DNA from: Prorocentrum cordatum
Taxonomy: Eukaryota > Sar > Dinophyceae > Prorocentrales > Prorocentraceae
Direction: 5' to 3'
DNA: 64,000 nucleotides
Assembly (NCBI GenBank): GCA_963575745.1
Contig: CAUYUJ010018059.1
Coordinates: 1,526,588 to 1,590,587 of the forward strand
Shown here: piece after piece, positions 38,866 through 57,087 of the stretch
How the letters are laid out: each line of letters opens with the position of its first letter
Position numbering within the stretch: position 1 is the first letter of the stretch
Notes under the pieces: model-generated
What the model was told of the DNA's origin: nothing
Seen by the model: only the letters and a program-made list of their open reading frames with translations
The model's database searches: none
Position numbers and translations under genes: made by a program

Positions 38866-39111
38866 GTCAACGGGACGAGAAGGGCCACCTCAGAGTGCAG
38901 GTACGCAAGCTGCAAACTTTGATGCAAGATGTATCTTGAATCTAAATGCCTGCGGGTGGGCTCAACCACTTGCGTGTTGGTCTCGGTCCAGACCTGCGAA
39001 CAGTCGAAAGTGAGCCTGGTAACTCAAATAGCATCCGCTCCCATGGGAATCGAATGGCAGATAGCGTCCATTACCCTGCTGGGGTGGTTCAGTATGGGGA
39101 ATGGACGGGTA

Positions 39112-41539: not shown

Positions 41540-41698
41540 TATGATAGGATAAGATCGATGTGTCGGTCTTTCCAGCACATAGCGAACACTAAGGTAAGTG
41601 TCCGGGCAAATAGGGCGCGCGCGCCTTGAGCCCAAGGCAACGGCGCGCGAGCTATGCTCCCGATACTATAACATCTCCCAAAGAGCTACCCTTAAAGT

Positions 41699-42082
41699 CG
41701 GGAGGGGAGGAGACGGAGAGCATAGCCGCGCAGCCGTTAGGCTCTGCAAAGGCCGCGCGCACAACTGTTTGCAAGAAAGAAAACAGCGTGTACAGTCTGG
41801 CCTAACACCAGACTGTATGGCGAGTTTCCTCGCAAGGCATTTCACGCAAATACAAGATAGCCCCTTCGAACGATGAAGGGCGATCGGCTCAGTTAGAGGC
41901 AAGCCAAACGGGCCATACCTCACCGAGCAAATAGGTATTAAGGCAAAGAGCCTGAGTCATATAAAGCCGGCTCGCTGCCAGGCGTGAAATGTAAGGCTCG
42001 TTTTCGAGCAACTAGAAGGGCGCCTCTGTAGTAGGCGCCCATGCTGGCAAATTGGACCGCGGGGGGGGGCAACAAGGACAGA
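41699..42082 (-). other. 3' noncoding region of retroelement (right copy)
   Basis: As in the left copy. The 10-bp stem is at 41791-41817 and is followed within 3 nt by mini-hairpin 41820-41833. A further mini-hairpin at 41996-42009 has loop AAAA in sense. Confidence 0.5.
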
Positions 42083-42907
42083 CTAAAATTGATTAGACTT
42101 AGGTTTGTTTCTGTCCTCGGGACACCGAAAGGGAACAAACTGCTTCACGTCATACTTGAATGACTGAGTGCCTGACATTACTTCCAGAAGCAGCTCCCGA
42201 TCGATGCTTCCCTTTGTATGCCCGTCTGCGGTCACATCCCTAGTATCACACCACTGCACGTTATGTACTACACCTATATCCATGAGCTCACGTATCCAAC
42301 TGATATGTCCAAGCAGAGTCCGCTCTGTCGGTATCTTAAGATCCTTGCTTGATAATGATTTATAAACGGACTCAGCGTCTATGGTAAGAGATACTTTGAT
42401 GGCTGGGCCTCCAACTTCACGCATATCTCGTAGTTGTCGTGGAGTCATAGCTCCTGCCTTGAGCTCGTGGAGTGTGATGAGCGCAGGGTAACACTCATCA
42501 AGGTTATGCGCAGCTGCGAGTGCCTCCGCAGCATAGCTGGACCTCACCTGCAGTCGGTGTGATTTGCATAGTCCGTCACAGAGGTGAACGACGGACTTGC
42601 CTTGAGGCGAGTTTCCTCGCCGTAGTTCATTAGCCCCGCGTGTGCCGTAGCCCTTGGTCTCATCCTCCTCCTCCCCGGTGAGCTTCCGATGCCCCGAATC
42701 GCTGTGGATGTCAACTTCATTCGTAGGCTTCATCCGAGGGAAGGTGATGCGTTTCGGGCTGCTGATCAGCTTTCGCGTCACAGCATTCAGACGTCTGACT
42801 TGCAGATTGGTGGGCTCGTGGATTTTCTGGCGAGAGACCACGTGTACCATGAGCCTAATTTGAATAAGAAGGGCATCGGCGAGGGCTCCTCGCAAGCTGA
42901 CGAACAT
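42083..42907 (-). CDS. RNase H (right copy)
   Basis: 274 codons, in the RT frame after one TAG. Likely catalytic acids are D70 (DIHSDSGH), E128 (SYAAEALAA), D177 (LTIDAESVY) and D228 (TADGHTKGS), the D-E-D-D set of copia RNase H, which removes template RNA. Residues 98-101 (RGNS) are a mini-hairpin. The stop is followed by the 3' noncoding region and LTR. Confidence 0.82.
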   Translation of the reverse strand: MFVSLRGALADALLIQIRLMVHVVSRQKIHEPTNLQVRRLNAVTRKLISSPKRITFPRMKPTNEVDIHSDSGHRKLTGEEEDETKGYGTRGANELRRGNSPQGKSVVHLCDGLCKSHRLQVRSSYAAEALAAAHNLDECYPALITLHELKAGAMTPRQLRDMREVGGPAIKVSLTIDAESVYKSLSSKDLKIPTERTLLGHISWIRELMDIGVVHNVQWCDTRDVTADGHTKGSIDRELLLEVMSGTQSFKYDVKQFVPFRCPEDRNKPKSNQF

Positions 42908-42988
42908 GTCGGTAATGAGTTTCGTGGCTTTGGCATCGGCCGCCGCTCCTGTAAGTTCTGGGTGTGTGATAGGACGTAGTTGTTTGAT

Positions 42989-44170
42989 CTACTCGTCCTG
43001 ATCCATGATCACACCCCCTTGATCATTCTTAGTGTAGCGAACGGCGCAGTTCGTATATGAGTGTTTGTTGATCTTGCATTTGCCAAACACTTTTTCGACA
43101 CGCTGTACATAGTCGTCTATATTTTTCTCTAGGCCTGTCATGTTAATATCATCGACATGTTTTGCCGTTAGCAGATCTTGGCTGAATTCAAACTCAGGGT
43201 CATAACTGGTCGGTGTAAGGCCTATAGCTCGTGTGGTCGTACGAAGTTTGAGAGAGAACGATCTTGGAGCGTCCTTTGTACCCGTTCCTGGTTTGAGGCA
43301 CCTGAGGCAGTGTCGGCTTTCGTCATAAGATGAGAAGCCGGGTAATGTACGAAGTACCTGGGCACTTCCCGGTGGAAGAGTGAAGCAGACCATGCGAGTT
43401 TCCTCGCCGGTGGCATGGGCAAGATCCTCATAGGTCAAGCCCTTGAGGAACGCCTTGTCGATATCCATGGATGCTAAGATCCACTCTCGATGGCATGCCG
43501 CCTCACTTGCCAGGTGTCGTTGGGGCTTCCTTCGGGCGGTTCCCGAGAATGTTTCCACGTCGAAAGCCTCAGTATCCATAAATCCACGAAGGACACGTCT
43601 GAGACGAATGGTTTTAACGTTCTCGGTACCCACCTTTACAAACTTCCACTTGCACACATACCTGGATGTCATGATGTTGGAAACTTTGGATAAATCATAC
43701 ATCTCAAAAGATCGGTTGTCAATCCATATTTTGAGTTCAGTATACAAAGCTTCACTAACCTCCTTTGGATGTGCTGCTATGTCGGCTTTGGTGAGTAGGT
43801 CATCTTCTTTAACGACTACAGCACGTTTAGCAGCAGAGGATACATATACTCTCATCGTTGCGACCATATCAGTGTCGAGCTGTGCTAGTTGAATCTGACC
43901 CAACACTACTTTTGACATTTCTGATGTAAAACATAATTCAACGCAAGGACCATATTCATCACTGTCAAGAGAGTAGCTCACGTCAGGTGTGGTTGAGCAG
44001 ACAGAGACTAGACAAGACTCTCGTGGTTCAGGCTCGCCTCCGAGCGTGTCCGATGATATGATATCTTCTTCGTCCACAGATGCTGAAACCAAAACACATT
44101 GGTCGGGCAGCATGGTTGTTGGGACGCAGTAAAGATAATCGTCGGTAGTCGTCGTAGGATGAAGATCCAT
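42989..44170 (-). CDS. Reverse transcriptase (right copy, open)
   Basis: 393 codons of Ty1/copia-type RT. YVCKWKFVKVG (171-181) is the entry strand; RVLRGFMDTEAFDVETFSGT (192-211) and SMDIDKAFLKG (234-244) contain motif A aspartates; KHVDDINMTG (337-346) is the catalytic YxDD-type motif with His-Val. It copies element RNA into DNA. The GEETR sequence at 255-259 is a mini-hairpin read in frame 3. The frame stops at TAG (42991-42989) at a position where related elements usually have Tyr (MDQDE-stop-IKQLRP), then continues in frame into RNase H. Confidence 0.85.
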   Translation of the reverse strand: MDLHPTTTTDDYLYCVPTTMLPDQCVLVSASVDEEDIISSDTLGGEPEPRESCLVSVCSTTPDVSYSLDSDEYGPCVELCFTSEMSKVVLGQIQLAQLDTDMVATMRVYVSSAAKRAVVVKEDDLLTKADIAAHPKEVSEALYTELKIWIDNRSFEMYDLSKVSNIMTSRYVCKWKFVKVGTENVKTIRLRRVLRGFMDTEAFDVETFSGTARRKPQRHLASEAACHREWILASMDIDKAFLKGLTYEDLAHATGEETRMVCFTLPPGSAQVLRTLPGFSSYDESRHCLRCLKPGTGTKDAPRSFSLKLRTTTRAIGLTPTSYDPEFEFSQDLLTAKHVDDINMTGLEKNIDDYVQRVEKVFGKCKINKHSYTNCAVRYTKNDQGGVIMDQDE

Positions 44171-44191
44171 ACGTAGTTCGTCGTATCACTC

Positions 44192-44665
44192 TTCCAGCAT
44201 CATAGCTTCGATATTATGTTCCTCATTTTCCTCATAGATTGTCGACAGACGGCCTTCACTCGGCGATGAAGCACCTGGGGTATCTGGAGGAGGCCTGTTT
44301 CCAGGCGAATCGTGTTCTCCAGACGTGTTGCTTGAGTGCTGCTATTTAGCCAGGTCGTCGTGAAATCCTAAGGAAGGGACGCGTGAAGTCAAGCATTGAA
44401 TAAGTCTGGAATGAGTGCTACCAGTGATCTGGGAAATGTTTAGGCCGGTGCCCACACACTCGTAGTAGTGGAAAGCTGGGCTGACATCGTTGTCATAGTG
44501 GATCAGCGTAGACCCGGTGGCGTACTTTACTGCAGGTAAGCTTGACATACTTTTGGCCAATCTAACTGCTACTACATGTTCTACTCGGAAGTAGTTTCGC
44601 ACGAGATGCTGTAGTGCTAGATGTACGCGCGGGTGAAACTTACTGTCGTCTGAAAGATTGAGGTT
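44192..44665 (-). CDS. Linker between integrase and RT (right copy)
   Basis: Continues the integrase frame after TGA with VRLAKSMSSLPAVKYATGST and a Ser/Pro/Glu-rich segment carrying the PGNRP hairpin (44293). Interrupted by TAG at 44344-44342 and TGA at 44188-44186, both in frame. The TAG is TAT (Tyr) in the left copy. Confidence 0.5.
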
Positions 44666-46195
44666 TCAATTGTAATCTGGGATATAGCCGAAAACTTTGG
44701 CAGGTTTCCCTGCGCCGAGGTGTGCCACATATGTAAGGACGGTTTGCATGGCCATATTATCCATGCCAAGTTCCCGTGTGAGGAGACATTCGATGTATAG
44801 TGTGTGACGAGCATCAGGATACATCACAATTACCTCACGAGATCCTGCCTTGACAACAATATGTCCTCTTTCAGGCACATTACGGATCACCGGGAATGGG
44901 CCATTCCAGCCTCCATGATCGTCCTTAGTGGCAGTGGGTCGATGGTAGTCGACCAAATCCCCTGCAGAGTAAAGGCGAGCACCATCAGGAGCCGTTTTAG
45001 CCCTAAGAGCACGATTTGTCTTGGCCACAGCAGTGGCTTGAGTTATGACTTCTAAACTAACTTCCCTCACACGACGTTCTCGTTCGTGACCTGATGTCTC
45101 GGGTCCCTTGGGAAAGTCAAGGGTGTCGAGGTCAGGAAGAAAGGAGGGCTGACGTCCTGTGCGTGCTTGGTATGGCGGTACTCCGTTGTAAAACGTAAAG
45201 GCATTGGTAACGAAGATGCCTTCCGCCAATACTCTAGTGAATACAACAGGGATGTTGTGTCTATTCAGTTCTTCCTCAATCATGTGGAGGACGCCTCTGA
45301 GAATGCCGTTTCGTGACTCAATCGAAGTCGCGTGTTGGCCAGGCGCCCGGATACGAAGTTCCTTGCCCTTATTGGCCATCATGGCCTTAGCGGCATCATT
45401 GTTCAGGGCGCCTTCTCCGTCTGAGTATAAGACTTTGAAGGGTCCGTGATAGGCAATCCAGCAGTAGTGGTAGGCGTCAAGGATAGCGTCACGTTCCCTG
45501 TCGGAAATGTCTTGGCCTGCTGCCAGGCGAATACAACGATCCATGATGTGAAATATGGTCCGTTTCTTGTAGAACATGAGGTCCATTTCGCCTTCATCGA
45601 GCCAGTTACCAGGAAGGCTCACCGAAGGTAGTGTTGAGTTTCCTGGACGTTCCCATGCTCTGCATTCCCGACAGGTATCGCAAACTTCTTTGATCATGTT
45701 CAGCCGAACGCTATCCAGCCCCACTTTGTCGAGGATTAGCCTCATCTTGGGTTCCTTCGCATGATACCATCGCAGGTGCAGTTTACGGAGTTCCTTTCTA
45801 ACGACATGAAGTTCGTGACTACGGAGATTTTGCAGACTGCGTTGGATGTCGAATCTCGCCCAGTCGGGTAGTCGTGGAGCCCCAGAGCCGGTAGAGGCAA
45901 GAAGGTTCCTTGTGGCTCTCCGCAGTCGGTCTCCTTCGTCGACTGCATCTGGAGGTGGTGGTACACCTTGTAGGCGGCCACGACGGGCCGCTACCTGTGG
46001 CGCTTCGCTAGAGGACGCAGAAGGCGTGTTTCCACGCTCGGGGGCGTCTCGTAGCATGTCGTAACTGCTGGCACCAGATGTCGGATCAACGTTGCCGAAG
46101 GATCGTGGTCGCGGTGGCCTGGCGCGTGCGCCTTGGCGGCCACCTGAAGCTGAAGCTTGGCCCTCACCAGGTTTAGGTAAGAGGGTTTCCACCAA
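44666..46195 (-). CDS. Integrase (right copy, open)
   Basis: 509 codons. The HHCC zinc site is H140, H145, C172, C175. The catalytic triad is D205 (EMDLMF), D259 (LYSDGEG) and E293 (ATSIESRNG), spacing D-x53-D-x33-E, matching the D,D35E integrase fold that inserts cDNA. A C-terminal region (GDLVDYHRP, WNGPFPVI) looks like the small SH3-like DNA-binding domain. The N-terminal 100 residues are Pro/Ala/Ser-rich linker with the RGNTP hairpin. The frame ends TGA at 44668-44666 and then continues in the same frame into the RT region. Confidence 0.85.
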   Translation of the reverse strand: MVETLLPKPGEGQASASGGRQGARARPPRPRSFGNVDPTSGASSYDMLRDAPERGNTPSASSSEAPQVAARRGRLQGVPPPPDAVDEGDRLRRATRNLLASTGSGAPRLPDWARFDIQRSLQNLRSHELHVVRKELRKLHLRWYHAKEPKMRLILDKVGLDSVRLNMIKEVCDTCRECRAWERPGNSTLPSVSLPGNWLDEGEMDLMFYKKRTIFHIMDRCIRLAAGQDISDRERDAILDAYHYCWIAYHGPFKVLYSDGEGALNNDAAKAMMANKGKELRIRAPGQHATSIESRNGILRGVLHMIEEELNRHNIPVVFTRVLAEGIFVTNAFTFYNGVPPYQARTGRQPSFLPDLDTLDFPKGPETSGHERERRVREVSLEVITQATAVAKTNRALRAKTAPDGARLYSAGDLVDYHRPTATKDDHGGWNGPFPVIRNVPERGHIVVKAGSREVIVMYPDARHTLYIECLLTRELGMDNMAMQTVLTYVAHLGAGKPAKVFGYIPDYN

Positions 46196-46845
46196 GCTGG
46201 CACGGTTTTGCCTTCGGAGTCGTGGTCGTCTGGAAGTTCAAATGGTTCAGCAAAACGACATTTACCAGGTTCGGTATCGAGGTGGTTCTTAACACCTTTG
46301 CTTCTCGTAAAATCCCTCTGGCATGCGGGACATGGCCAATATACAGAGATGGAATCATTATATTTACACTGCGTAGGGTCTCTGTTATGGCTAGGACTGT
46401 CCTTTCGGACGTTGTCGATGCATGCCGGGCAGGTGGCCACCTTTGGGATGACACGATCACCGATGCGTCTCATACCTTCGCCTGGTTCAGCTTGATCGGG
46501 AAGGTCTGCAGGGTAAGCATGTGCAAAACTTGTAGGCGCGTTTCCGCGCGTAGTATCAATGGCTTTCGCCAGATAGACGGCTTCCACAAAGGCAGACTGC
46601 AGTCGTCGAGTGTATTTTTGTGCCAGTGAAAGCTCTTTGTTGCCCTGTTGTGCTTGCACATGCTGACCGTTGCATTGGAGTCGCTCAAAGGGTTTAAGAA
46701 TTGTCTCGTCATTGCTGGTGATATTGTTCGGCTTCTTCATATAGTCACCAACCGAATCTTTGAGTCCCGTAGCACATGAATCAATGCGCACGGTTGTAAT
46801 GTGCGGTCGGTTGGCAAGCTTCTTCCATGGGGAAATATCATCCAC
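45991..46845 (-). CDS. Methyltransferase-like C-part and two C2HC zinc fingers (right copy)
   Basis: 284 codons, in frame with the preceding region apart from the TAA. Residues 1-90 finish the methyltransferase-like domain (SCATGLKDSVGDYMKKPNN, QCNGQH). Residues 139-160 form C-x2-C-x10-H-x6-C, and residues 172-196 form C-x2-C-x12-H-x7-C, two tandem C2HC fingers that could bind nucleic acid. After residue 218 the integrase is reached by a frame change near 46195. Confidence 0.6.
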   Translation of the reverse strand: MDDISPWKKLANRPHITTVRIDSCATGLKDSVGDYMKKPNNITSNDETILKPFERLQCNGQHVQAQQGNKELSLAQKYTRRLQSAFVEAVYLAKAIDTTRGNAPTSFAHAYPADLPDQAEPGEGMRRIGDRVIPKVATCPACIDNVRKDSPSHNRDPTQCKYNDSISVYWPCPACQRDFTRSKGVKNHLDTEPGKCRFAEPFELPDDHDSEGKTVPAWWKPSYLNLVRAKLQLQVAAKAHAPGHRDHDPSATLIRHLVPAVTTCYETPPSVETRLLRPLAKRHR

Positions 46846-46938
46846 CCATGTTCCTGTAGGTTGTTCGCGAATAAACCACCTCCGAGCGTCATCTTGGGTT
46901 ACAGCAATTTTACCACAGTAAGTTATGTGTGGTAAATC

Positions 46939-48615
46939 TTATGTGTGGTGCTGTTCCCAAGTGTTGTGATTGACTTTGTAGTTGTAGTAGGATGGTGGTC
47001 CTGTAGTGCGGCAACTGGGTTGTAGCATGGCAACTCGTACGTAGCATATAGCGAAGTAATGATCTACAACCCGCTGCACCGATGGGTCTCCCAGGTCGAC
47101 ATATGTAGTCTTGTCTAGGTTGCCTCCTGAGGAGAGTCCCCTTGAGAAGGCAAGCTCTGAGATACCACCCTCGCCGCCACAAAGCTCCAACATATCCACG
47201 CAGTTGTTATGGCCATAGCATAGTGTAGCGACTATGCTGTATATGTTAGCGCGTGTGTCGGGCATAAATGTGGGGAGGGTAAGGAACAGGTCATCGTCCT
47301 CATCGGAGCTTATCAGCTCAATAGGGACGTCAGTACTCCAGGTCGCCATGAGATCCTGTCCGAGTCCCGACAAGTCGTCGCCGCAATCATCGCTTCCGTC
47401 TTCAACGTGCTTTTTAATGCGGCGAGGCTTGATGCCTGCTTCCTTTTCGGCTTTGAGCCTTTCCTTCTGCTTGATACGCGATTCTGTAGGTAAAACTTGC
47501 TCGTTTTGTTCGCCGGTCTGTGTGCCCATTGTCGTGGTTGAGTGGGCACATGCGTCAATCGCCAGAGTCGGGGGGGGGAGAGAACAGTCATCTATGATGA
47601 CGCGTCGAGGCTTCTGTGGTGATTGAGTGGGCCCGTTTCCGAGCAAGACCGGTTCCTCGGGTTGCCAATGCAGCCGAGTACTAATGTTGGCAACCCCTGC
47701 AGGTAGTGGTGCATGCCAATCGTACCCTGTTGGTTGATCGGTAACTGAGATATCCTGAATAACCGCATTGGTATCCAGGTTAATCGTTACACGTCGGGTA
47801 ACATCAGACCATTTCGGTCCTCCCTTATTGGTCGTCACGTAATGATGGATGTTATGGTCCGTACGTGTATGAGTGTTTAAATATACAGGCACGTTTCCGT
47901 GCGTGGTGGTGCTCCCCAGACTGTTGTCGTTCAGATGACGGATGAGTGTAGTACGTGTCTGAGCTCGCCATTCAGCATGCCGGACTGTATGGCCGTACCA
48001 ATCCAACACATGTTGTGGTATTGCCTGTTTGCATGTACATGCCCACAGCTTCGAGCTAATCGGTATTGATGACGCTACCTGCATATAAGTACCGCTCGGT
48101 GTACTGTCTTGCATATCGAACCGAATACCGAAATGACACAAACGCATCCGTATTACTGACAACTTAAGATCGTCCAGGGCATCACGTACTGGAGATAACT
48201 TCCAAACATATCCTGGGGGACCAAATCTAATGATTGTCATACGGAGTTTCTTGGCTTTTATCAACAGGTTCTGGATACGTGACCAATGTGGGGCCACTCT
48301 CTTTCCTGGAGTTCGTAAATACCAGTCGCCCGGGGTACTAATCCATATGAGAGTGTAATCTCCACTGATCACCGCACCCAGGCAATCTGTGCCCACGCTT
48401 GTCATCAGCTCATCGTGGGAAATACGATCACAGATATAACCTCGGGTGCGGAGGTCGGCGCAAGCCTCTCTCGTATCTTCAATGACAAAAGCCCTCTTAC
48501 TAAGGCAGGTTACCCCGCTGCCCTTGTTGCCCCCCCGGCTTTTCGACCAACAGGCAAGACGACGAGGGGGCGACGTCGCCCTGCCATCTTCAAGATAAAG
48601 AAGATGTGCCTGCAA
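46939..48615 (-). CDS. Unknown region plus methyltransferase-like domain, N-part (right copy)
   Basis: 558 codons. Residues 1-440 are unassigned; they include ISGDYTLIWISTPGDW and a Lys/Glu-rich stretch. From residue 471 (47205), VDMLELCGGEGGISELAF resembles the SAM-binding motif I (FxGxGG) of C5-cytosine methyltransferases, and QPSCRTTGPPSYYN resembles the catalytic P-C motif IV. The frame stops at TAA (46941-46939); the same frame then continues as DLPHITYCGK and FIREQPTGTWVDDISPW, corresponding to the ENP/ENV motif. Cytosine methyltransferases inside dinoflagellate retrotransposons have been reported; assignment here is by motif only. Confidence 0.6.
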   Translation of the reverse strand: MQAHLLYLEDGRATSPPRRLACWSKSRGGNKGSGVTCLSKRAFVIEDTREACADLRTRGYICDRISHDELMTSVGTDCLGAVISGDYTLIWISTPGDWYLRTPGKRVAPHWSRIQNLLIKAKKLRMTIIRFGPPGYVWKLSPVRDALDDLKLSVIRMRLCHFGIRFDMQDSTPSGTYMQVASSIPISSKLWACTCKQAIPQHVLDWYGHTVRHAEWRAQTRTTLIRHLNDNSLGSTTTHGNVPVYLNTHTRTDHNIHHYVTTNKGGPKWSDVTRRVTINLDTNAVIQDISVTDQPTGYDWHAPLPAGVANISTRLHWQPEEPVLLGNGPTQSPQKPRRVIIDDCSLPPPTLAIDACAHSTTTMGTQTGEQNEQVLPTESRIKQKERLKAEKEAGIKPRRIKKHVEDGSDDCGDDLSGLGQDLMATWSTDVPIELISSDEDDDLFLTLPTFMPDTRANIYSIVATLCYGHNNCVDMLELCGGEGGISELAFSRGLSSGGNLDKTTYVDLGDPSVQRVVDHYFAICYVRVAMLQPSCRTTGPPSYYNYKVNHNTWEQHHT

Positions 48616-49684
48616 TGTCTGCCAGCATCTGGGCTTCCCTCAGATGCTGGAGCTCAGCGCTGCAGCGCGCCGTGGCCTCAGAGGCGGATTGCTCCGCAAA
48701 TGCTGTCAGCATGGATGGATTATCCATCAGCTGTTTCAGCGCGCCTTTGGACCTAGCGTCGCTGACCGTCTGCAGCTCACGGTTAGTGTACCCCATCACT
48801 ATCTTCCGGCGGGACCGTACAGCGCCCATGGGTACACTTCCACCATGCTGGGCCAGTGTCCTGGCAACGAAGCAATCGAACGATTCAAGATCGTCGATGT
48901 TGTCGCCTCGCATAGTGGCCTTGGCGAGCGTCTCCATCAACCCCTGAGGCAGGTTTCCCTGCAATTGCTCGCGCTCCTGCGCCGGGGTCGGCTCGCCCGT
49001 CAGCACCGTCTGGAATGACGTGCTGCTTGAGCTCGAGGCGGGTTGCCCCGCAGCTCCAAAACGATCGCACCTGATCGACAGATGCCCTGACGGCAACTTC
49101 GTCGTCGGCATGATATTGGAGCCCTCGGGGAGCTCCATTTTGACCTGCCACTTTCCAGGGAATATCAGCTTCTCCTGGCCTCGTTCAAGCACGATGATCG
49201 TGCGATTGTCCTGCGTACTATCGAGGCCTAGGATGGCCGGCAGGTCTTTGCCACAGCCTGACACAATGTTCGTCTTATATGAATCGAGCTGGGTCGACCC
49301 CTGGTACTCGCAGGCAATACTGAATGTGCCTACGGTATCCGCTGGGGCCGACCCTTCTCCCACTCCGTTGATATTCAAACGAGAGCGGGGCTCGAACGTA
49401 CAAGTACGACCGTGTGCCTCAGCAGCCTGGACGAACCTGCGGCTCGCGTTCTCGCCCATGATGTTGATCTTCGAGCCTACATCGATGAGGATGGAATTTC
49501 CACCATCATCCAGGAACGTCTTACTCGGCTGCTTGATGCGCACCGTTTCTGAAGTGTCGGCTCTGCCGTCAGGCGGGTTTCCCCGCGAGTAGGTCGCACT
49601 CCCTGGCGGGTTGCCCCGCGTGACGCTGGCATACGGCCTGCCTTCGGCCATGCGCACCAGGTCGATGCACTGGAAGTGCGACAC
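48590..49684 (-). CDS. Retroelement aspartic protease region (right copy)
   Basis: 364 codons. ILIDVGSKINIMG (residues 65-77) is the retropepsin active-site loop with Asp68-Val-Gly in place of the usual D-T/S-G. LPAILGLDS further on matches the ILG motif of the flap-side strand. The protease would cut the polyprotein. The first residues hold two adjacent RGNPP hairpins (49606 and 49573). The frame is preceded in frame by a TAG at 49748 and leaves the next frame by a +1 shift near 48600. Confidence 0.7.
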   Translation of the reverse strand: MSHFQCIDLVRMAEGRPYASVTRGNPPGSATYSRGNPPDGRADTSETVRIKQPSKTFLDDGGNSILIDVGSKINIMGENASRRFVQAAEAHGRTCTFEPRSRLNINGVGEGSAPADTVGTFSIACEYQGSTQLDSYKTNIVSGCGKDLPAILGLDSTQDNRTIIVLERGQEKLIFPGKWQVKMELPEGSNIMPTTKLPSGHLSIRCDRFGAAGQPASSSSSTSFQTVLTGEPTPAQEREQLQGNLPQGLMETLAKATMRGDNIDDLESFDCFVARTLAQHGGSVPMGAVRSRRKIVMGYTNRELQTVSDARSKGALKQLMDNPSMLTAFAEQSASEATARCSAELQHLREAQMLADIAGTSSLS

Positions 49685-49747
49685 GTGCTGGAAGTGATCG
49701 CCGCGCTCCTCCCGCCAGTTGGCATGCTCATCACGTATGCTCTTATA

Positions 49748-50457
49748 CTAATACTGCTCGCGGGTCGTGCGTCTCGTCAGCGTCAGATACGAGTGAAGGG
49801 CAATATCCTGCAGCCCCTCATTCGTGAGGTGATCCCTGTATTGCAGCCACTCCTCGAACTCCTCGTTCGTCGCTGTGATATCGACGGCCCTGGCTGCCGT
49901 TGCTGCTGTTGCCACTGAGGAATCTGAGATGTCAAACGACGGACTATCAGTCTCAGGATTATCGGCATCCAGCATAAAAAGGTTGTGTGTGCATTATCCA
50001 TTTGATTCTGGAAATGCCGAACACGCAACTCACGCAGCTGGTCAGGGTCCAGTGCCATCTCTGCCCCGTCCCCACTCTGGGGAGACATCTGAGGAGTATT
50101 AGACAGGTTTCCCTGCTGAGGCGCCGTCATCGGGATGAGCTGATCGAAGTATCCCGTCTCCATCGGCGGCCTCACCTCCTCTGGCAGGTTTCCCTGCTGT
50201 TGGGGCTGAGCTGTCTGCCTATCTAGCATCCTTGCCGTCATCTCCTCCACCATGCTCCTCAACTCCCGCAGCTCCCTCGCTGCTTGCTCAGGAGTCTGAG
50301 TGAAGGAGCCGGTCCACGGGAATGATGACGCTATGATGCCAGGTGCTCGGCAGATAGCACATGGTGGCTGCTGAGGATCTCCCTCGCGCTGGTTTGCCAC
50401 ATGGCCCACCGCATTTGAATTCCAGCACCCCTCATGGAACAAGTGATTACACCTCAA
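49748..50457 (-). CDS. Linker between RING-H2 and protease
   Basis: After the RING the frame carries Gln/Pro-rich sequence with two xGNL hairpins (50184 and 50103). It shifts -1 at a T5 run near 49976 and continues as EEFEEWLQYRDHLTNEGLQD to a TAG at 49750-49748. Downstream of the TAG the same frame runs on into the protease. The duplication breakpoint (49762) lies just before that TAG. No domain recognised. Confidence 0.5.
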
Positions 50458-51056
50458 ACGGTAAACACTTTACCTGGGCTGAAATTCTTCGAGGCATACC
50501 GCACAGGTATCTTCCATTCCAGTGACAACTTCCACATCTACTGCTCTGGGATATACCCGCCGCTGTCTCTCCAATACCGTCTCGGAGGGCATGAAGGCAG
50601 CTGGGGGAGCTCCTGATGGACCCAGCACCTCCGGCACTCCGGCATTTGGCACGGAGGCGGTAGGGGTCGCAGCGGGCGAGTTTCCTCGCAAAGGTGAGCC
50701 TCTGTTTCTCACAACCTCAAGTGCAGCTGCACGTGAGATTGATCACTACAGCGCACGTTAGTGAGGCTGTGGAGCTGATCCGCCAATTCGCGAACAAACT
50801 TGTTCGGGACTCTAGACCCATCAGGGTACAATGGCGGATTCATGTGCGCTGGCGGTGGCCTCTGGCCCTGGGCCATACTCGGGTGAGCATTGAGCGCTGG
50901 GATGAGGGCTCGTTGCCGAGCAGGATCCCTTGGGTTGGGACCCTCAGGCTCCCAGGACCAGGCCGGCCTCCACCTCTGACCACTTGGGTGAGGCAGATTA
51001 TGGCTCTGCACCTGCTGCACAGCGGCCGCCACTCTTGCACGGTAGTCATCAGGCAC
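50340..51056 (-). pseudogene. RING-H2 finger region, interrupted by TAA
   Basis: Two consecutive frames on the minus strand (50709-51056 and 50470-50712, joined by a shift) lead into DTCAVCLEEFQPR, then a TAA codon (50472-50470), then in the same frame RCNHLFHEGCW and, after 21 residues, CAIC. Spacing across the stop is C-x2-C-x14-C-x1-H-x2-H-x2-C-x21-C-x2-C, a complete RING-H2 pattern with TAA replacing one residue of the x14 stretch. RING-H2 fingers are usually ubiquitin E3 ligases. The stop may be a nonsense mutation; a short intron is possible because AGGTAAAGT resembles a 5' splice site. Confidence 0.65.
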
Positions 51057-52519
51057 ACCGCGACTGTGGTTTGTCCAGCAAACGGCCGATGATGGCTTGG
51101 GGTGCCAGGCAGGTTTCCCTGCTGACTCGTTGGAGTGCCGGGCGGCATCATGTTCAGGAGAGCTGTACCATGCTCGGCCCTAGCCGCTGCGATCCTCTCC
51201 ATGAGGGTGCCGTTCGTGGCAGGGCGGCCAGGAGTCCCGAACGGAGACTGTGCAGGTGGCGTAGCCATTGGGGTCATGCCCCTCGGTGTGTGCATGCTCT
51301 GCGAGGGGCTCCCATGCATCTGCTCAAATCGAGCAGGCTCTCCAAAGATGCGGCCGAACGTCTGCGGGTCTCCCTGCGGCTCAGGCATCTCAGCTCTGAG
51401 TCCATTTATAGGCAGGTTTCTCTGCATGGCCTGACGATTTCGCGTCGCCATGGCGGACATTGCTCCCTGGCCTGCGGCCCAGGGGTCCTGTTGATATAAC
51501 CTATCCGCCCATTGCTCCACCTGTTCAGGGTTCAAAGCGGCCGCTATCTGGTCCAAGTCCGAGGTGCTGATGGCCTGCCAAGGCACGGCGCTAGGCCCTT
51601 GACTTGGGGCGCGGCTTGGAGCCGCGCTCCCGGCCTCACTCTCGGTGATCATGAAGATCTGGTGGACCTCAGGCTGGTTTCCCAGCTTGGCGGGACTGTA
51701 GTGGTCCCCAACCTCCCTGTGGAGGTAGACCATGGGAGGGTCGACGCCCTCTTGGTCTCGGGACCACTGGTGTTTGACGCTGGCACTGCCAACGTCAGCC
51801 CACCTGCCAGGGGCCGACAGCACGGCGGGGGGGACTCGCGCCCGGCGATCCCCCATGTACTCAGGATTGTGCCAGTGCTTCCCCGTGGCCAGGTCCTCTA
51901 CGTGGGAAATGTAGTACGGTTCAATGATACCGTTGTTTCCCTCGGACAAAAGGACTCCGTTACCAGACCAACAGAATTTAATACAATCTTGCATGGCATT
52001 ATGCCAATCTACGAAGATGATGATGTCGGAGTCTGGGTCCCACCCACTGTTTACGGCACGACGGCGGACCGTCGGCACGAAGTGGATGTGTGACCAGCCT
52101 GTTCCCCGTTTCCTCGTGTTGTGCTCGGGTCTACAGGACAGACCGTGCCACATGATGCCTTCGAAGGCATGCCACCGAGTGCCATGCATGGCTACCTCGG
52201 GGTACGGGGCCGGTCTCCCGGCAGGTTGGTCGCACAGTACAATATAGTTGTACAGCGACCATGGAGCTTTCAATGTCCATGAATGCCCCTGAGAGGCGCG
52301 GATGAAGATCTCGGGCTCACCGGAGTCCCGCATTAACACCTTGAACTGAAGGCGCTGTTTTTCTTCTCCGTCTGGTTCACGGACATGAACCACTTCCATC
52401 ATGATGGCTGCCAGTTGGTCAACCGTGCAACCATATAGGTTCGCATTGATGACTTTGGCCTCGTCATGTCTGGGATTATACCCGTCGTGTCTCGATTTTC
52501 CTGTTCCACGGATAATCAT
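50840..52519 (-). CDS. Tpt1/KptA-like RNA 2'-phosphotransferase domain (main part)
   Basis: 559 codons. Residues 15-210 complete the phosphotransferase fold begun upstream: IFIRASQGHSW (71-81), VAMHGT (109-114), SHIHF (143-147), IIIFVDWHNAMQDCIKFCWS (166-185) and SGNGVLLSEGNNGIIEPYYI (185-204). In the known family these are the IRAxQGHS, YHGT, HxHF and S-NGV motifs that bind NAD and the 2'-phosphate; Tpt1 removes the splice-junction 2'-phosphate of tRNA using NAD. Arg and His of the RH motif are in the upstream part. Residues 210-559 are Pro/Gln-rich linker with xGNxP hairpins. The link to upstream Gag needs a +1 shift at about 52490. Confidence 0.75.
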   Translation of the reverse strand: MIIRGTGKSRHDGYNPRHDEAKVINANLYGCTVDQLAAIMMEVVHVREPDGEEKQRLQFKVLMRDSGEPEIFIRASQGHSWTLKAPWSLYNYIVLCDQPAGRPAPYPEVAMHGTRWHAFEGIMWHGLSCRPEHNTRKRGTGWSHIHFVPTVRRRAVNSGWDPDSDIIIFVDWHNAMQDCIKFCWSGNGVLLSEGNNGIIEPYYISHVEDLATGKHWHNPEYMGDRRARVPPAVLSAPGRWADVGSASVKHQWSRDQEGVDPPMVYLHREVGDHYSPAKLGNQPEVHQIFMITESEAGSAAPSRAPSQGPSAVPWQAISTSDLDQIAAALNPEQVEQWADRLYQQDPWAAGQGAMSAMATRNRQAMQRNLPINGLRAEMPEPQGDPQTFGRIFGEPARFEQMHGSPSQSMHTPRGMTPMATPPAQSPFGTPGRPATNGTLMERIAAARAEHGTALLNMMPPGTPTSQQGNLPGTPSHHRPFAGQTTVAVCLMTTVQEWRPLCSRCRAIICLTQVVRGGGRPGPGSLRVPTQGILLGNEPSSQRSMLTRVWPRARGHRQRT

Positions 52520-55500
52520 TCACGAGTTCCACGAGGTTAACCCAACCATCATGATCATCGAAGGAAGCCAGGTCCCACACAGGATTGTGTGGTTTGTCTG
52601 GCGCATGTCTGCATATCCTGCTGAGAGCTTTACTCAGCTGTTTGAGAGTGTGATTGGATGTAGGAAGGATGTTAGCTTGCCTGCATTTCTTCATGAATGC
52701 CTCATCCACCGAGCGTATCGGTGGGAGCTTCCGCAGAGCAAGTCTATCCCTGATCACACTCGGAGTCCCACTGGTGAAGGACGTGTCCCCTGGGTGGCGC
52801 AGCTGATCCACGGGCGGGTTTCCCCGCATAGGAGCCTCTGTCGCTGAAGAGGCTGCGGCTCCTGAAGAGGAGGAAGCTGCAGCGGCAGCGCCTGGCGGGT
52901 TTCCCCGCGGTGATCCGCGACTGGCGCTGCCCCTAATCGTCGGCGCCCAGGTACCCCTAGACATAGCACCTTCGTCGGACCTTTTGGAACGGGCCGCCAC
53001 AGGCGAAGCTGGCGCAGGGGCATGCCCGGTGCGCTCGAAAGCTGCCGCCCTTTTAGCAATGGAATTGCTGCGACTAAGCGGGCGTATCCGTGCCTCCGCG
53101 GGGTCCTGAGGTTGCTGCTTGGGCTCAGACGCTTGCGTAGGAGTTGCGCCAATCGGCTGTCTCGGAGTTGCAGAGCGAGGCGCCTCCATCTGCACATCTG
53201 GCCCAGGATCCTGAGAGCGCGCCTTCGGTTTCACCTCCGAAGACGACTTCGGCGCCGGGGTTTCACTCTTAGCCTTCGAAAGTAGTGGGGGCGGGGGGTT
53301 CCTAGCCCCCTTCATGTAAATCTTGTTGGAATCCTCCAACATCTTGCGAGTTGCCTCGCGTGCGCGTTCGTCTGCTATCCGCATACGTTCCTCGTCTTCC
53401 GCAACGCGTTGGGCCTTCTGTTCATCCTTAGATGTCAGTTCTGGTTGTTGGGGCTGACTAGAAACGCTGGGCGAGTTTCCTCGCGCACCAGGAAGACTAA
53501 AGAGCGCGTCTTTCTCTTCCTGGGTCATGGGCACCAGTCCTCCCCTTGGAACCGGGGTAGACTTCTCCTCTTCCTGTTTCGGATCCAAGTGGCCCAGGAT
53601 CCCGAGACGACGATTCACTTCTGCGATCTCGTCCTGTGTCATCGGGATAAGTGGCGGATGGCCCTCTTCATGAGGGGTTTTGCCCCTGTTTGGGCTCAGA
53701 CCATCATTGTTGCCAACGGGGCATCCCGGCCTGTGGTTCTGGAACGGCTCGGAACAAGGTCCGCAAGCTGCTTGAGGCCTATACTGCTTGCGAGCCGCGA
53801 TGATGTGTCGCAGCTGCGCCCGCACTTCTTCAATTTCAGGGCGGCGGATGTTTGTTGCAAGCTGATAACCTCCGCGGATGGCTTTACCCTCAGCGTCCCT
53901 ATAGGCAGGGTTGCCCTTGCCGAAGGCCAAGCGTTCCCCCTTGAGGCGTCTTGGGTCATTATACGGAAGCAGCTGGCCTCCTCGCCTGAGAGCGCGTTCT
54001 TTCGGACCAGCCTGCCTCCACTCACGAGGAAGCCGAGCCTGTGGATGTGGCTCTCCTCTGACACGCGGATGGGGACGAGACCTTCCAGCATTCTCATCAG
54101 AAGAGGCTGCCGAAGCAGCCTGAGTGGTAGCCGGCGGAGGTGCCTGCGGAGGCTCCTGTGCAATCCCAGGTGGATCGGCCACATGAGGCAGGTTTCCCTG
54201 CTGGCTGGAGCTCGGCGCAAATGGCGCTTGTGTCGATGGTGATGGTGCTTCAGGCTCGTCGGGATCAAAGTCCACCTCTACCTCCCCGTTGACTTCCATC
54301 ATGAGGATTGTGGCTTCGTCCTCGCATAGCCCGCAACCATCGCCCTCTTCTTCTTCTGATGTAGAACTGCCAATGATGATGGCCATTGGCGCAGCCGGGA
54401 CAGGCAGGTTTCCCTGCATAGCCGGCGTCTGTGCTTCGCTCGGCTGTCCCGGGGTAGGCGGCACGGTCGTCGGCTCAGGCTCGTTGCCGAGCACAGGCTG
54501 CCCGGCAATGTTGCGCATGGCCGTATTGCGTGGCCATAGTCCCACCGCCTGGAGACCCCATCCTGGCGGAGAAAGAGCCTGACCGCGCATGGCGATGGCC
54601 CTTTCAAGAGCATCACGCCATCTCCCGCGGGAGTATATTACACGTCTCTGCACGTCCTCAGGATGCACGCTGTCGATGAGGGCCAAAGCTGCCAACGCTA
54701 ACTCCGAGTCATCGCAGGCGTCGGTGTCCTGCAGCATCATGATGCCAGCTTCGATGCTCTCTTGACTCTCGGGATATGCGATGATAAGTATCTCATGCAT
54801 CCTCATGAGGGTTTGCAGAAGTGCACGCGGTCCGTGCTCGCCTGGAGCAAGCGAACCAGGGGGTGCACATGGGATCTCTGGTTCACCTGCAATGAAAGCT
54901 TGAACAAACGCTTGAGGCTCTATATCTATAAGTTCTTCATTAGTTTGGGGATAGGTAGGTCTGTTTCCAGGCGGGAGTTCAGGTGGAGGTTGGAGGTTGC
55001 GTTCAACCTCGGAAGGCGAGGCCTCCACAGTGATGTCCTCGCCACTGCTTTCGTAGGCCATGATGTTGCCTGGGTTCCCGAACATCCAGTCGAAGAAAGA
55101 CAGAGGCTGGTTTCCCAGCGTACCGTGATCCACGGGAGTGAGCTCGTTGTTGCCAATAACGAACCGGCGGACGTACTCGAGGTAGTACGCGTACAACCCA
55201 TGACCATACGCCTCGAGCTCGTCGACGTTGTCCATGCAACTGACCCAAATGTAAAATATCTGTTCCATGGCCTCAAAATCCTGGAGGCTCAGATATTCGA
55301 TGAATGGTTCACTTGAGCCAAAATGGACTTCGGTTGACCTGCCCTTTCCATTTTCCTTCGTTGGACAATCCCGCACAAGATGGTCGGTACTGTCGCATTC
55401 ATGGCACTTAAGAACCTGGCCGTCTCTACCTCGCGGGTTTCCCCGCCTACCCTTGCCTTTTCCTGAGGTCTCTCTACGGCCCTTGCCACGGCCCTTTCCC

Positions 55501-56330
55501 CCGAAGAATATCTCATCATATTGTTCATCTGAGAGCCTCTGGAGGAAGGCCGTGATGCCTCGTCCGTTCAACCTCCGACGACCTCGTTTACCTTTACCTT
55601 TTCCCTTGAAGCTCCTCCGTATCCTCCTCCTAACACGACGCGCTGGTTTTCGTGTGAACCTCCTCCACCTCCGTTTAGCCTGTTGTAATAACCAACACAA
55701 ATGTTCAGCGCGCTGATTGTCATTATCCATATTCATAATATCTGACCTATCTAAAGCTTCAACACCGTCTGATGATATAGTATCTGCGTCGGTGCCGGAG
55801 TCGAAATCCTCGTCTCCCAAGTAGGTGGATACACCGTCGGTTAGGGGGTTCGATTCACCCCATAGAGAACGGTGTGGTTGTGGTTTTCTAGAAGGAGGGC
55901 TGGTTGCCCAGCTTGGTTGTGATCGATCTCCTGCTAGCAGAGCAGTGGATTCTCCAGGATCGTCGGCCCATGTGCTTGGGGGCCCGTTTCCAGGCTGGGC
56001 TTCAGTGGTTAAGGTAGTGTAGAAGTTCCCACTACCAGATCCCCTTCCCCTTCCAAACACAGATCCTATATTACCAAGAGACCGTTCAGATGGGTGGCCT
56101 ATCGAACGCATCCTCTCCAGCAACTCATCATACTGTTGTTGTGTTCGGGGCATTTGGTGATTGAGTGGCTGTAAGAGTTGCATGACTCGCTGGTTGCCGA
56201 CGCCTAAGGCGCGGAACAGGGCCGTGGCTAGTAGTTGGAAGTTGGGAAGGTCAAATCCCACCGACTGTGCCTCAAGTCGGGCCATTTCGAATCGGGTGAG
56301 GGTGACATCGATTCGTTCTCCGTGAGGCAC
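52476..56330 (-). CDS. gag: Gag with CCHC knuckle and N-part of Tpt1-like domain
   Basis: 1284 codons. Residues 1-92 are a Gag core (GERIDVTLTRFEMARLEAQ, MQLLQPLNHQMPRTQQQYDE, NIGSVFGRGRG). Residues 218-300 are strongly basic (RRRIRRS, KGKGKGKRGRRR). C309-x2-C312-x4-H317-x4-C322 is a retroviral-type zinc knuckle for RNA binding. Residues 333-340 are encoded by a spliced-leader-like sequence. Residues 340-1215 are mostly Pro/Glu/Ala-rich and probably disordered. Residues 1229-1278 (LSKALSRICRHAP, DDHDGWVNLVELV) match the start of Tpt1/KptA phosphotransferases. The frame stops there and continues, shifted +1, in the next open frame. Confidence 0.75.
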   Translation of the reverse strand: MPHGERIDVTLTRFEMARLEAQSVGFDLPNFQLLATALFRALGVGNQRVMQLLQPLNHQMPRTQQQYDELLERMRSIGHPSERSLGNIGSVFGRGRGSGSGNFYTTLTTEAQPGNGPPSTWADDPGESTALLAGDRSQPSWATSPPSRKPQPHRSLWGESNPLTDGVSTYLGDEDFDSGTDADTISSDGVEALDRSDIMNMDNDNQRAEHLCWLLQQAKRRWRRFTRKPARRVRRRIRRSFKGKGKGKRGRRRLNGRGITAFLQRLSDEQYDEIFFGGKGRGKGRRETSGKGKGRRGNPRGRDGQVLKCHECDSTDHLVRDCPTKENGKGRSTEVHFGSSEPFIEYLSLQDFEAMEQIFYIWVSCMDNVDELEAYGHGLYAYYLEYVRRFVIGNNELTPVDHGTLGNQPLSFFDWMFGNPGNIMAYESSGEDITVEASPSEVERNLQPPPELPPGNRPTYPQTNEELIDIEPQAFVQAFIAGEPEIPCAPPGSLAPGEHGPRALLQTLMRMHEILIIAYPESQESIEAGIMMLQDTDACDDSELALAALALIDSVHPEDVQRRVIYSRGRWRDALERAIAMRGQALSPPGWGLQAVGLWPRNTAMRNIAGQPVLGNEPEPTTVPPTPGQPSEAQTPAMQGNLPVPAAPMAIIIGSSTSEEEEGDGCGLCEDEATILMMEVNGEVEVDFDPDEPEAPSPSTQAPFAPSSSQQGNLPHVADPPGIAQEPPQAPPPATTQAASAASSDENAGRSRPHPRVRGEPHPQARLPREWRQAGPKERALRRGGQLLPYNDPRRLKGERLAFGKGNPAYRDAEGKAIRGGYQLATNIRRPEIEEVRAQLRHIIAARKQYRPQAACGPCSEPFQNHRPGCPVGNNDGLSPNRGKTPHEEGHPPLIPMTQDEIAEVNRRLGILGHLDPKQEEEKSTPVPRGGLVPMTQEEKDALFSLPGARGNSPSVSSQPQQPELTSKDEQKAQRVAEDEERMRIADERAREATRKMLEDSNKIYMKGARNPPPPLLSKAKSETPAPKSSSEVKPKARSQDPGPDVQMEAPRSATPRQPIGATPTQASEPKQQPQDPAEARIRPLSRSNSIAKRAAAFERTGHAPAPASPVAARSKRSDEGAMSRGTWAPTIRGSASRGSPRGNPPGAAAAASSSSGAAASSATEAPMRGNPPVDQLRHPGDTSFTSGTPSVIRDRLALRKLPPIRSVDEAFMKKCRQANILPTSNHTLKQLSKALSRICRHAPDKPHNPVWDLASFDDHDGWVNLVELVNDYPWNRKIETRRV
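55312..55333 (-). other. Spliced-leader-like sequence inside gag
   Basis: On the minus strand this reads CCGAAGT then CCATTTTGGCTCAAG. The last 15 nt are identical to the 3' 15 nt of the dinoflagellate spliced leader as I remember it, and the CCG-AG before it resembles the leader's CCGTAG. It lies directly after the zinc knuckle and is read as TEVHFGSS. It may mark where cDNA of a trans-spliced host mRNA joined the element, or be a coincidence. Confidence 0.5.
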
Positions 56331-57087
56331 GTGGAAATCGATGAGTTAGTTGTGTGCCGGAAGTGAGCTGGCGCTTATCTTCCAGGCGTTCGAACTTCAT
56401 GCTTAGGAGGAACATGATGTAGGTCACTGGGTCGGTGTGGACCCCATCGATGTCAGCACCATAATTTATAATGTCAGGCGGTACCCTCATGGCGAGTGTC
56501 CTCGCTAGGCCACCCAGGCCGCGTTGTATGGCGGCCGCTTGGGCCTGTGGCGTCATACGTCCGCTTGTGACGTTGAGCCATGCGTTGACCTCATAAACGT
56601 AGTCGCGGAAAGGCACGTTGCTTTGAGGGTCCCAATATGGGCCATGTGTTTGCCCATCGGTGCTGTTGTCTCCACGACGCATGTGTCCGATTGCTGCCCC
56701 CAGCGCGAACCATATGATAGCGAAGATAACCAGCCCAAGGCTGTGTAGATAGGGGTGGTTATGAGGCGCGTTGCCGCGCTGGGGTAGCGCCTTGTCGAGT
56801 CTTCGAGGCGCTCTATCTGGCGGATCTCTCCGCCCATGCTTCAGGTATTGCGCTTTTGGCTCGTTGCCGAGCGGTTGGTAGTAGCGCAATGATGAAACGC
56901 ATATGGTACCAATGTCGTTGTCTAGACGTCGTACCTCTCGTGTCGCTTCTTGCTCTTGGATAGATCCTCGTAAACGTACTGGGAGTGATAGCGCAGGGTG
57001 GTAGGTGGTCACGAAGATCGTGCCGAAGAGTATGAGGCTAAGAAGAGCAAGAGCTGACCACACGAGTGCGGCCAGCTCCGCAACCAA
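56272..57087 (-). CDS. Gag N-terminal region with two membrane helices
   Basis: This frame opens exactly at the LTR/PBS edge (first codon TTG; no ATG is forced) and runs 271 codons. It has two hydrophobic helices, residues about 5-29 (ALVWSALALLSLILFGTIFV) and about 116-134 (LGLVIFAIIWFALGAAIGHM), separated by a charged loop. The following part (residues about 155-240) reads like the start of a copia Gag core. It leaves the Gag frame at about 56345 by a +1 shift. Membrane helices ahead of Gag are unusual; possible roles are membrane anchoring of particles or an unrelated captured exon. Confidence 0.6.
   Translation of the reverse strand: MVAELAALVWSALALLSLILFGTIFVTTYHPALSLPVRLRGSIQEQEATREVRRLDNDIGTICVSSLRYYQPLGNEPKAQYLKHGRRDPPDRAPRRLDKALPQRGNAPHNHPYLHSLGLVIFAIIWFALGAAIGHMRRGDNSTDGQTHGPYWDPQSNVPFRDYVYEVNAWLNVTSGRMTPQAQAAAIQRGLGGLARTLAMRVPPDIINYGADIDGVHTDPVTYIMFLLSMKFERLEDKRQLTSGTQLTHRFPRASRRTNRCHPHPIRNGPT
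57070..57086 (-). promoter_or_regulatory. Candidate primer-binding site
   Basis: Directly after the 5' LTR the sense strand reads TGGTTGCGGAGCTGG. Starting with TGG at the LTR edge is what a site complementary to a tRNA 3' end (CCA) should look like. The tRNA is not identified. Confidence 0.5.

Follow-up and report, generated by a model that had tools for sequence, protein, structure and literature searches.

Mini-hairpins maintained by compensatory change along a copia-type retroelement of the dinoflagellate Prorocentrum cordatum

The lambda boxB RNA, a five-pair stem with a five-letter loop that adopts a GNRA-like fold, is bound by the arginine-rich N peptide in antitermination, and gammaretroviral RNAs are packaged through a pair of hairpins with GACG loops in the 5′ leader. 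In RNA viruses (MS2, picornaviruses and hepatitis B), packaging stem-loops dispersed along the genome have been proposed to bind the coat protein (PMC6281560). How a long terminal repeat (LTR) element picks its own RNA from among the messages of the cell is described in a study of Ty1 as little understood (PMC5454406). Here, we describe a copia-type LTR element on the minus strand of a 64,000-nucleotide stretch of the P. cordatum genome (GenBank assembly GCA_963575745.1, contig CAUYUJ010018059.1, positions 1,526,588 to 1,590,587; hereafter, the window), along which a strict five-pair mini-hairpin recurs. Purifying selection, with compensatory changes on both sides of the stem, maintains these hairpins, and they may be binding sites for the Gag protein of the element itself.

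By description, the hairpins resemble boxB in their five-pair stem, in a GNRA-like fold and in having an arginine-rich candidate partner, and differ from it in a loop of four letters. As in the gammaretroviral signals, a short stem bears a tetraloop that begins with G and the carrier is a packaged retro-RNA, whereas the gammaretroviral loop ends in G and its hairpins are not dispersed. The likeness to the viral packaging signals lies in the many sense-strand stem-loops with a common loop motif along the RNA (36 sites, 41820-56872). The viral motifs are variations on a short recognition sequence (PMC6281560), whereas a strict GNNA hairpin occurs here about 35 times, with clear covariation and putative Gag binding. 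Ty1, too, is an LTR/copia element with RNA hairpins that matter in cis and with Gag implicated; its signals, however, are confined to the first 380 nt and act through kissing loops (PMC5454406), whereas the present hairpins run from the leader to the 3′ end, past the stop codon. In the limited literature searched, we found no account of hairpins of this kind in a retrotransposon.

Thirty-six sites conforming to the strict pattern GCNNG-GNNA-CNNGC lie on the minus strand, which is the sense strand of the element, between 41,701 and 57,087, and the antisense strand of this interval contains none. The inner stem letters pair perfectly at 32 of these sites, as compared with 2.25 (36/16) expected for free letters (binomial probability 1.3e-34). 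Dinucleotide shuffles of 41,700-57,000 (n = 300) contained on average 0.043 perfect stems and never more than one. When the ten listed open reading frames (ORFs) were shuffled among synonymous codons so that the protein and the codon usage were kept (n = 300), a mean of 1.15 and a maximum of five perfect stems were obtained, as against the 30 observed (the site at 46,024 falls within two ORFs). The two strands of the 30.7 kb that lie beyond 23.9-57.2 kb together gave two pattern matches, neither of them perfect, and the segment from 32.0 to 41.7 kb gave one imperfect match; perfect sites in the window are thus confined to the element and its tandem-duplicated part. In unrelated viral DNA (240 contig pieces, 2.06 Mb, both strands, each piece picked by one match), 98 further pattern matches included eight perfect stems. 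No Rfam family matched the window at its gathering score. Thus, a first-pass annotation of this DNA, which had proposed many small paired hairpins spread through one retroelement, is borne out, and shuffled or unrelated sequence lacks such a density.

Each hairpin is built of five pairs, with G-C and C-G at the base and G-C on top, and is closed by the tetraloop GNNA. Provided that the stem pairs, any letters may fill its two inner pairs and the middle two positions of the loop. The loop rule is wider than the GNRA rule given in the first-pass annotation, since the window has two GACA loops, and relatives have GTCA, GCCA, GCTA, GATA and GGCA. Eleven stem types are found among the 32 perfect sites (AG, GA, GG, TC, TG, GC, CT, GT, AC, CA and CG), which upholds the diversity claimed earlier while correcting its counts of ten types and about 31 perfect stems of 37. 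Off-rule loops close three further perfect stems (AAAA at 41,996, GAGG at 44,032 and GCAG at 45,515), and the perfect stem at 56,820 has an A-T closing pair instead. The hairpins are located in gag, in the linkers of pol, inside the ORFs for reverse transcriptase (RT) and RNase H and, further on, in the 3′ untranslated sequence, at a mean spacing of 485 (coefficient of variation 0.71) with no fixed period seen. Twenty-one of the perfect hairpins read x-G-N-x(-P)-like peptides, the predominance noted earlier; the other two frames hold five and three, and three sites, rather than the two previously counted, lie outside the listed ORFs. The probability of the middle pair exceeded 0.5 in 27 of the 32 hairpins when folded in a 146-nt context. 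The covariation score was 0.560 (36 sites, 20 distinct), as against 0.094 after shuffling and at most 0.113 for slid structures; in this analysis, 22 cells were two-sided and 99% of cells paired. Two further candidate features did not generalize: a C at +1 follows 29 of the 32 window hairpins, yet in families B, C and D it follows only 11 of 36, 4 of 17 and 1 of 11, respectively, and the lack of stems in which both inner pairs are A/T (P = 6e-4 in the window) is broken by AA in families B, C and D and by AT in C and D.

The window element was compared with three relatives of its own family (family A; C2, C15 and C26), from which it differs at 11.5, 17.3 and 17.0% of background positions. Across the hairpins (94 cells per position), differences affect 0-4% of cells at stem letters, 2% at loop ends, 9-10% at loop middles and 6% at the +1 letter, as against 14-37% at the other adjacent flanks. 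In the 21 main-frame sites, 6 of 244 cells differ at third codon positions that fall on stem letters (G1, N4, C5 and G2′); the other third positions differ in 8 of 61 cells at loop letter L2, in 27 of 60 just outside (+2) and in 1,230 of 3,643 (34%) in the gag frame. Therefore, the constraint is on the nucleic acid and not only on the peptide. Two-sided changes without an indel occurred at 55106, 56820, 53471 and 50184 within family A, and at 44700 and 42607 relative to elements that are about 65% alike (Table 1). The earlier suggestions that selection acts on pairing rather than on a fixed sequence, and that a structure rather than a peptide is shared, both agree with these data, in which related elements keep complementarity, and the second agrees also with the use of three frames and of untranslated sites. 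Each copy decays after insertion, as would be expected from the LTRs of the window copy, which differ by 2-5%.

The mismatches that do occur are informative as to the strand. The four imperfect stems of the window comprise three sense G-U pairs, as first reported, and one sense A-C pair, which corrects the earlier count of two antisense G-U pairs. Wobble evidence had been called weak, and it is so for the window alone; once the relatives are included it is strong, since the single-mismatch stems of all eight elements compared comprise 26 sense G-U, four sense A-C and three other mismatches, as against 3, 5 and 23 in unrelated DNA. By distinct site, a hand count gives approximately 19 G-U to 3 A-C (P = 0.0009 if independent). 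Sense RNA is the molecule that fits this spectrum, and it is therefore the sense RNA that folds. In addition, a sixth Watson-Crick pair is present in only 1/35, 2/37, 1/34, 3/39 and 2/36 stems of families A and B, which is rarer than the approximately 25% expected.

The window lies in an assembly of 4.13 Gb in 21,875 contigs, in which GCNNGGAAACNNGC, the GAAA form alone, occurs 38,124 times, as against 7,419 occurrences of a reversed control pattern. Besides the four elements of family A, two of family B and one each of families C and D were compared. Perfect GNNA sites number 32, 35, 30 and 36 in family A, 34 in family B (with 8 more in a partial second copy), 7 in C and 8 in D, and the pattern is absent from the antisense strand except for one match each in B and C. 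Families C and D make weaker cases: C looks decayed (20 sites, nine with G-U), and D is a partial sequence (11 sites, three with G-U). The usual loop differs among families, being mostly GNAA in A and mostly GNCA in B. Two other pieces taken around hairpin matches, L259 and L265, have one perfect site each, and no relation to the element was found for them; on the minus strand of L259, approximately 2009-2029, there is a 19/21 match to the dinoflagellate spliced leader, which, like the size of the assembly, fits a dinoflagellate host.

Beyond this genome, 44 RT homologues and six protease homologues were collected from metagenomes and other public sources, some of them EukProt entries labelled Pyramimonas. 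Candidate hairpins in them were read from the protein letters: among x-G-[NDH]-x peptides in the 50 proteins, 28 of 44 obey the codon-complement rule, where permutation gave a mean of 9.8 and none of 20,000 permutations was as high. Examples are RGDA/RGDT in P0045-P0046, QGHL/RGHP in P0014 and P0026, and HGNV/RGNA in P0030 and P0049; N-G-D-V at the RT place in P0021 and P0036 is a weak example in that the resident sequence is already motif-like, and is kept in the count of 28. P0013, P0016 and other EukProt entries are close RT homologues labelled Pyramimonas sp., which may reflect horizontal spread, shared ancestry or mixed cultures. Scans of viral and genome contigs, for which either the RT protein or an 18-row alignment served as the query, returned 1, 21, 143 and 30 stretches with the pattern, none of them a confirmed relative; exact hairpin 15-mers in viral contigs gave background only, with at most two perfect sites per locus strand among the 120 pieces listed for each.

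Sites appear and vanish almost entirely without a change of length. Twelve directed comparisons among the four family A elements comprised 399 checks of perfect hairpins, of which 385 aligned 14:14; the other 14 comprise seven leader-site checks unaligned in C15, one hairpin in an 88-nt indel and six at two C15 sites, one with one extra nucleotide and the other (41,820) with a 16-nt insertion. Nine sites were compared with families B-D, whose elements are about 65% alike: at seven of them the hairpin is there or missing without any indel in the site, and at the two leader sites the alignment is poor, with a gap of 15 columns at leader 2. The RT site at 43394 was found only in family A, and 33 of 38 aligned homologues have E-R where the window has T-R. 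In the linkers of the family B element L256, 23 of 24 sites are perfect and all have the stem GG, mostly within the peptide A-G-x-P-A, and some stand in short tandem repeats. These 23 sites share one stem, and local duplication therefore supplied units there; the earlier argument that copied units would be alike finds its instance in this family.

We put at about 0.5 the probability that the hairpins are dispersed RNA sites bound by the element's own Gag, which would package or compact the 15 kb RNA. They would be repeated binding sites of one RNA-binding protein, and its likeliest identity would be Gag, in which a CCHC knuckle accompanies a long arginine-rich motif. Many Gag sites would mark the RNA as self, gather Gag and compact the RNA for particle assembly, much as has been proposed for the dispersed signals of RNA viruses. 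Within constrained domains, new sites would arise by point change, and short local duplications in linkers would add others in some families. We infer the link to Gag from comparison of the families: Gag is the natural candidate because both of its motifs recur in family B despite 43-45% identity (the B knuckle matches zf-CCHC at E 0.0014 and 19.1 bits, below the cut-off of 20.8) and because the usual loop differs between co-resident families. It is also tempting to speculate, more tentatively, that this is a clade with a strict mini-hairpin address code every ~480 nt, read by an element-encoded protein, in which family-specific loops (GNAA, GNCA and GNGA, the last as judged from protein letters) separate an element's own RNA from that of others, and in which the array shifts its loop type as families split while the sites keep pairing.

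Several points weigh against Gag-bound packaging sites. The 26:4 ratio of G-U to A-C includes orthologous sites and copied units, which are not independent, and eight elements were compared in all. The five-pair length is not exact in families C and D (a sixth pair in 4/17 and 2/11), single antisense matches exist in B and C, and only seven of the 20 sites of family C are perfect. The single dominant stem in B, less marked in C and D, fits copying as well as selection, and an arginine-rich motif could bind RNA without specificity. Furthermore, in Ty1 the 380-nt 5′ domain and 357 nt of the 3′ end sufficed for retrotransposition when proteins were supplied in trans (PMC5454406), and copia elements therefore do not generally need dispersed sites.

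Structure and selection on the sense RNA would be explained equally well by RNA-level sites with a role other than packaging, such as stability, export, escape from silencing or translation pacing, read by a host or an element protein with Tpt1 or RING as possible partners. This is a serious possibility, if short of an even chance, and the coding sequences of both family A and family B include a RING region as well as a Tpt1/KptA domain, which is an RNA enzyme. Within it, translation pacing does not fit hairpins past the stop codon, and a single host reader fits less well than an element-encoded one with usual loops that differ between families in one genome. That the structure matters instead in single-stranded or cruciform DNA, during cDNA handling or recombination, is very unlikely: loops of the GNNA type are stable in DNA too, but they are strand-specific here, with none on the antisense strand of the window, and sense G-U mismatches far exceed A-C.

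Rickettsia palindromic elements and mitochondrial double-hairpin elements insert as units. Like them, the present hairpins are short repeats within genes and in frame, and the first-pass annotation had suggested a selfish 15-nt palindrome comparable to the bacterial ones. One frame is common to 21 of the 29 sites within listed ORFs, many of the GG-stemmed L256 sites have unrelated flanks, and the 16-nt insertion in C15 (L252) at 41,820, the sole unit-sized event seen, resembles a decayed second unit. However, with that one insertion, a single 88-nt indel and 385 of 399 checks at 14:14, and with lengths unchanged at sites within conserved regions, RT and RNase H among them, an inserting selfish palindrome is improbable on the time scale seen; nor would compensatory change maintain the pairing of a selfish insert. 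Least credible of all is a selected peptide motif (x-G-N-x-P or A-G-x-P-A) with the palindrome as a by-product. One peptide form is indeed common to most sites of a family, but sites occur in three frames and in untranslated parts, third codon positions are held, the site at 44700 swaps both stem letters with AGKPA unchanged, and synonymous-codon shuffles retain 1.15 of 30 perfect stems.

The host of the hairpins is an LTR/copia-type element, as judged from its LTRs and from the RVT_2 match of the family B RT (44.8 bits, above the cut-off of 31.6). Its sense order is Gag, Tpt1/KptA, RING, protease-like ORF, an ORF of ~560 amino acids, probable integrase, copia-type RT and probable RNase H, which fits the copia order of integrase before RT, with an integrase ORF that lacks a Pfam match; the frames of the window copy are broken at several places. 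The sequence TGGTTGCGGAGC just inside the 5′ LTR resembles a tRNA primer site. The 3′ LTR is split by an insert of 2,435 bp (39,104-41,538), and just before it (41701-41725) a sense polypyrimidine run (TCTCC...), conserved in L250, L252, L254, L255, L263 and L258, stands where a polypurine tract is expected. A tandem duplication of 17.8 kb (14,122-31,944 and 31,957-49,762, 98.6% identical) has one breakpoint inside the element; its 15 duplicated hairpins show no changes where approximately 2.6 would be expected, too few to count. Substitutions between the duplicates amount to 1.15% inside the element and 0.43% in the neighbouring 7 kb, and arrays of ~160 bp repeats lie within the duplicated segment (17239-18435 and 35097-36293). 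An ORF just past the 3′ end of the element (37366-38865) weakly matches the F5/8 type C domain (E 2e-5, below cut-off), and 15 nt inside the gag frame (55312-55332, minus; V-H-F-G-S-S) equal the end of the spliced leader, which may be chance.

A Tpt1/KptA domain with a nearby RING region is found in both of two copia-type families ~65% alike (window 50843-52519; L256:2401-4800), and a search with the Tpt1 ORF protein gave no match at E 0.001 among 7,994 scored. To our knowledge, Tpt1/KptA and RING are unusual retrotransposon cargo. In the ORF of ~560 amino acids, the stretch ELCGGEGG and a later P-S-C may point to a methyltransferase. Symbiodinium retroelements with a DNA methyltransferase (DNMT) have likewise picked up host-type enzymes, methyltransferases in that case; they are of the LINE and DIRS types, Copia there being without a DNMT domain, and the words "hairpin" and "palindrom" do not occur in the main text of their description (PMC5890265).

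Table 1. Features of the window element and its hairpins, the latter in 5′ to 3′ order on the sense strand.
Feature	Position	Strand	Remarks
LTR/copia-type element, family A	39002..57358	-	LTR pieces; RVT_2, Tpt1; 5′ end at 57358
5′ LTR, ~272 bp	57087..57358	-	matches both 3′ LTR pieces
3′ LTR, first part	41539..41700	-	162 bp, 95% match to 5′ LTR
3′ LTR, second part	39002..39103	-	102 bp, 98% match to 5′ LTR
Gag arginine-rich motif, candidate hairpin reader	55557..55685	-	same motif in family B Gag
Gag CCHC zinc knuckle	55365..55409	-	recognised by eye
ORF with Tpt1/KptA RNA 2′-phosphotransferase domain	50843..52519	-	PF01885 68.1 bits; also in family B
RING-type region	49786..50469	-	similar to P0046; RING domains in family B
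Protease-like ORF	48593..49747	-	putative, from D-x-G-S motif and order, not Pfam
Conserved ORF, ~560 aa	46942-48639 (L256:7249-8998)	-	50% identity A vs B; no Pfam family above cut-off
Probable integrase ORF	44669..46237	-	from order and sequence; no Pfam match
RT ORF	42992..44185	-	RVT_2 E 1.2e-5, 25.4 bits, below cut-off
Probable RNase H ORF	42086..42988	-	from order and sequence; no Pfam match; stop at 42085
Second, partial element copy with hairpins	23992..31896	-	from tandem duplication
GCTCG-GCAA-CGAGC, leader	56859..56872	-	
GCGGA-GAGA-TCCGC, outside count of 36	56820..56833	-	C2, C26 GCGGG-GAGA-CCCGC (two-sided)
GCGCG-GCAA-CGCGC, leader	56766..56779	-	lost in C2
GCGAG-GACA-CTCGC	56492..56505	-	lost in C15 through 1-nt insertion
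Hairpin with U-G pair	55982..55995	-	kept in 3/3 relatives
GCTGG-GCAA-CCAGC	55899..55912	-	
GCGGG-GAAA-CCCGC	55433..55446	-	
GCTGG-GAAA-CCAGC	55106..55119	-	C2 GCTCG-GAAA-CGAGC (G-C to C-G, two-sided)
GCTCG-GCAA-CGAGC	54479..54492	-	lost in C2
GCAGG-GAAA-CCTGC	54404..54417	-	
GCAGG-GAAA-CCTGC	54188..54201	-	
GCGAG-GAAA-CTCGC	53471..53484	-	C15, C26 GCGGG-GAAA-CCCGC (two-sided)
GCGAG-GCAA-CTCGC, different frame	53346..53359	-	lost in C26
GCGGG-GAAA-CCCGC	52895..52908	-	
GCGGG-GAAA-CCCGC	52814..52827	-	
GCCGG-GAGA-CCGGC, different frame	52209..52222	-	
GCTGG-GAAA-CCAGC	51673..51686	-	lost in C15
GCAGG-GAGA-CCCGC, A-C mismatch	51364..51377	-	
GCAGG-GAAA-CCTGC	51109..51122	-	
GCTCG-GCAA-CGAGC	50908..50921	-	
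GCGAG-GAAA-CTCGC, outside listed ORFs	50676..50689	-	
GCAGG-GAAA-CCTGC	50184..50197	-	C15, C26 GCGGG-GAAA-CCCGC (two-sided)
GCGGG-GCAA-CCCGC	49606..49619	-	
GCGGG-GAAA-CCCGC	49573..49586	-	aligned peptide RGNP vs RGDT in P0045/P0046
GCGGG-GCAA-CCCGC	49038..49051	-	peptide AGQPA, also P0045/P0046
GCAGG-GAAA-CCTGC	48949..48962	-	
GCCAG-GACA-CTGGC	48852..48865	-	lost in C26
Hairpin with G-U pair	48505..48518	-	kept in 3/3 relatives
GCACG-GAAA-CGTGC	47889..47902	-	
Hairpin with U-G pair	47631..47644	-	full pairing in 3/3 relatives
GCGCG-GAAA-CGCGC	46536..46549	-	
GCGTG-GAAA-CACGC	46024..46037	-	
GCAGG-GAAA-CCTGC	44700..44713	-	family B GCGGG-GAAA-CCCGC (A-U to G-C), peptide AGKPA same
GCCTG-GAAA-CAGGC, outside listed ORFs	44293..44306	-	lost in C15
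GCGAG-GAAA-CTCGC, inside RT core	43394..43407	-	families B, C without hairpin, no length change
GCGAG-GAAA-CTCGC	42607..42620	-	families B, C GCGTG/CACGC (A-U to U-A); B loop GCCA
3′ untranslated, loop AAAA, outside count of 36	41996..42009	-	loop GAAA in 3/3 relatives
3′ untranslated, GCGAG-GAAA-CTCGC	41820..41833	-	past RNase H stop; lost in C15 through 16-nt insertion

In our judgement, the looseness of their motifs makes the dispersed packaging signals of RNA viruses difficult to test. In the elements described here, the motif is strict and occurs at least 30 times per family A element compared, its strand is resolved through G-U pairs, and it shows both compensatory change and constraint at silent sites. 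Several families with different usual loops reside in one genome, so that loop-specific reading, and with it the idea of dispersed signals, could be tested directly with synthetic hairpins.

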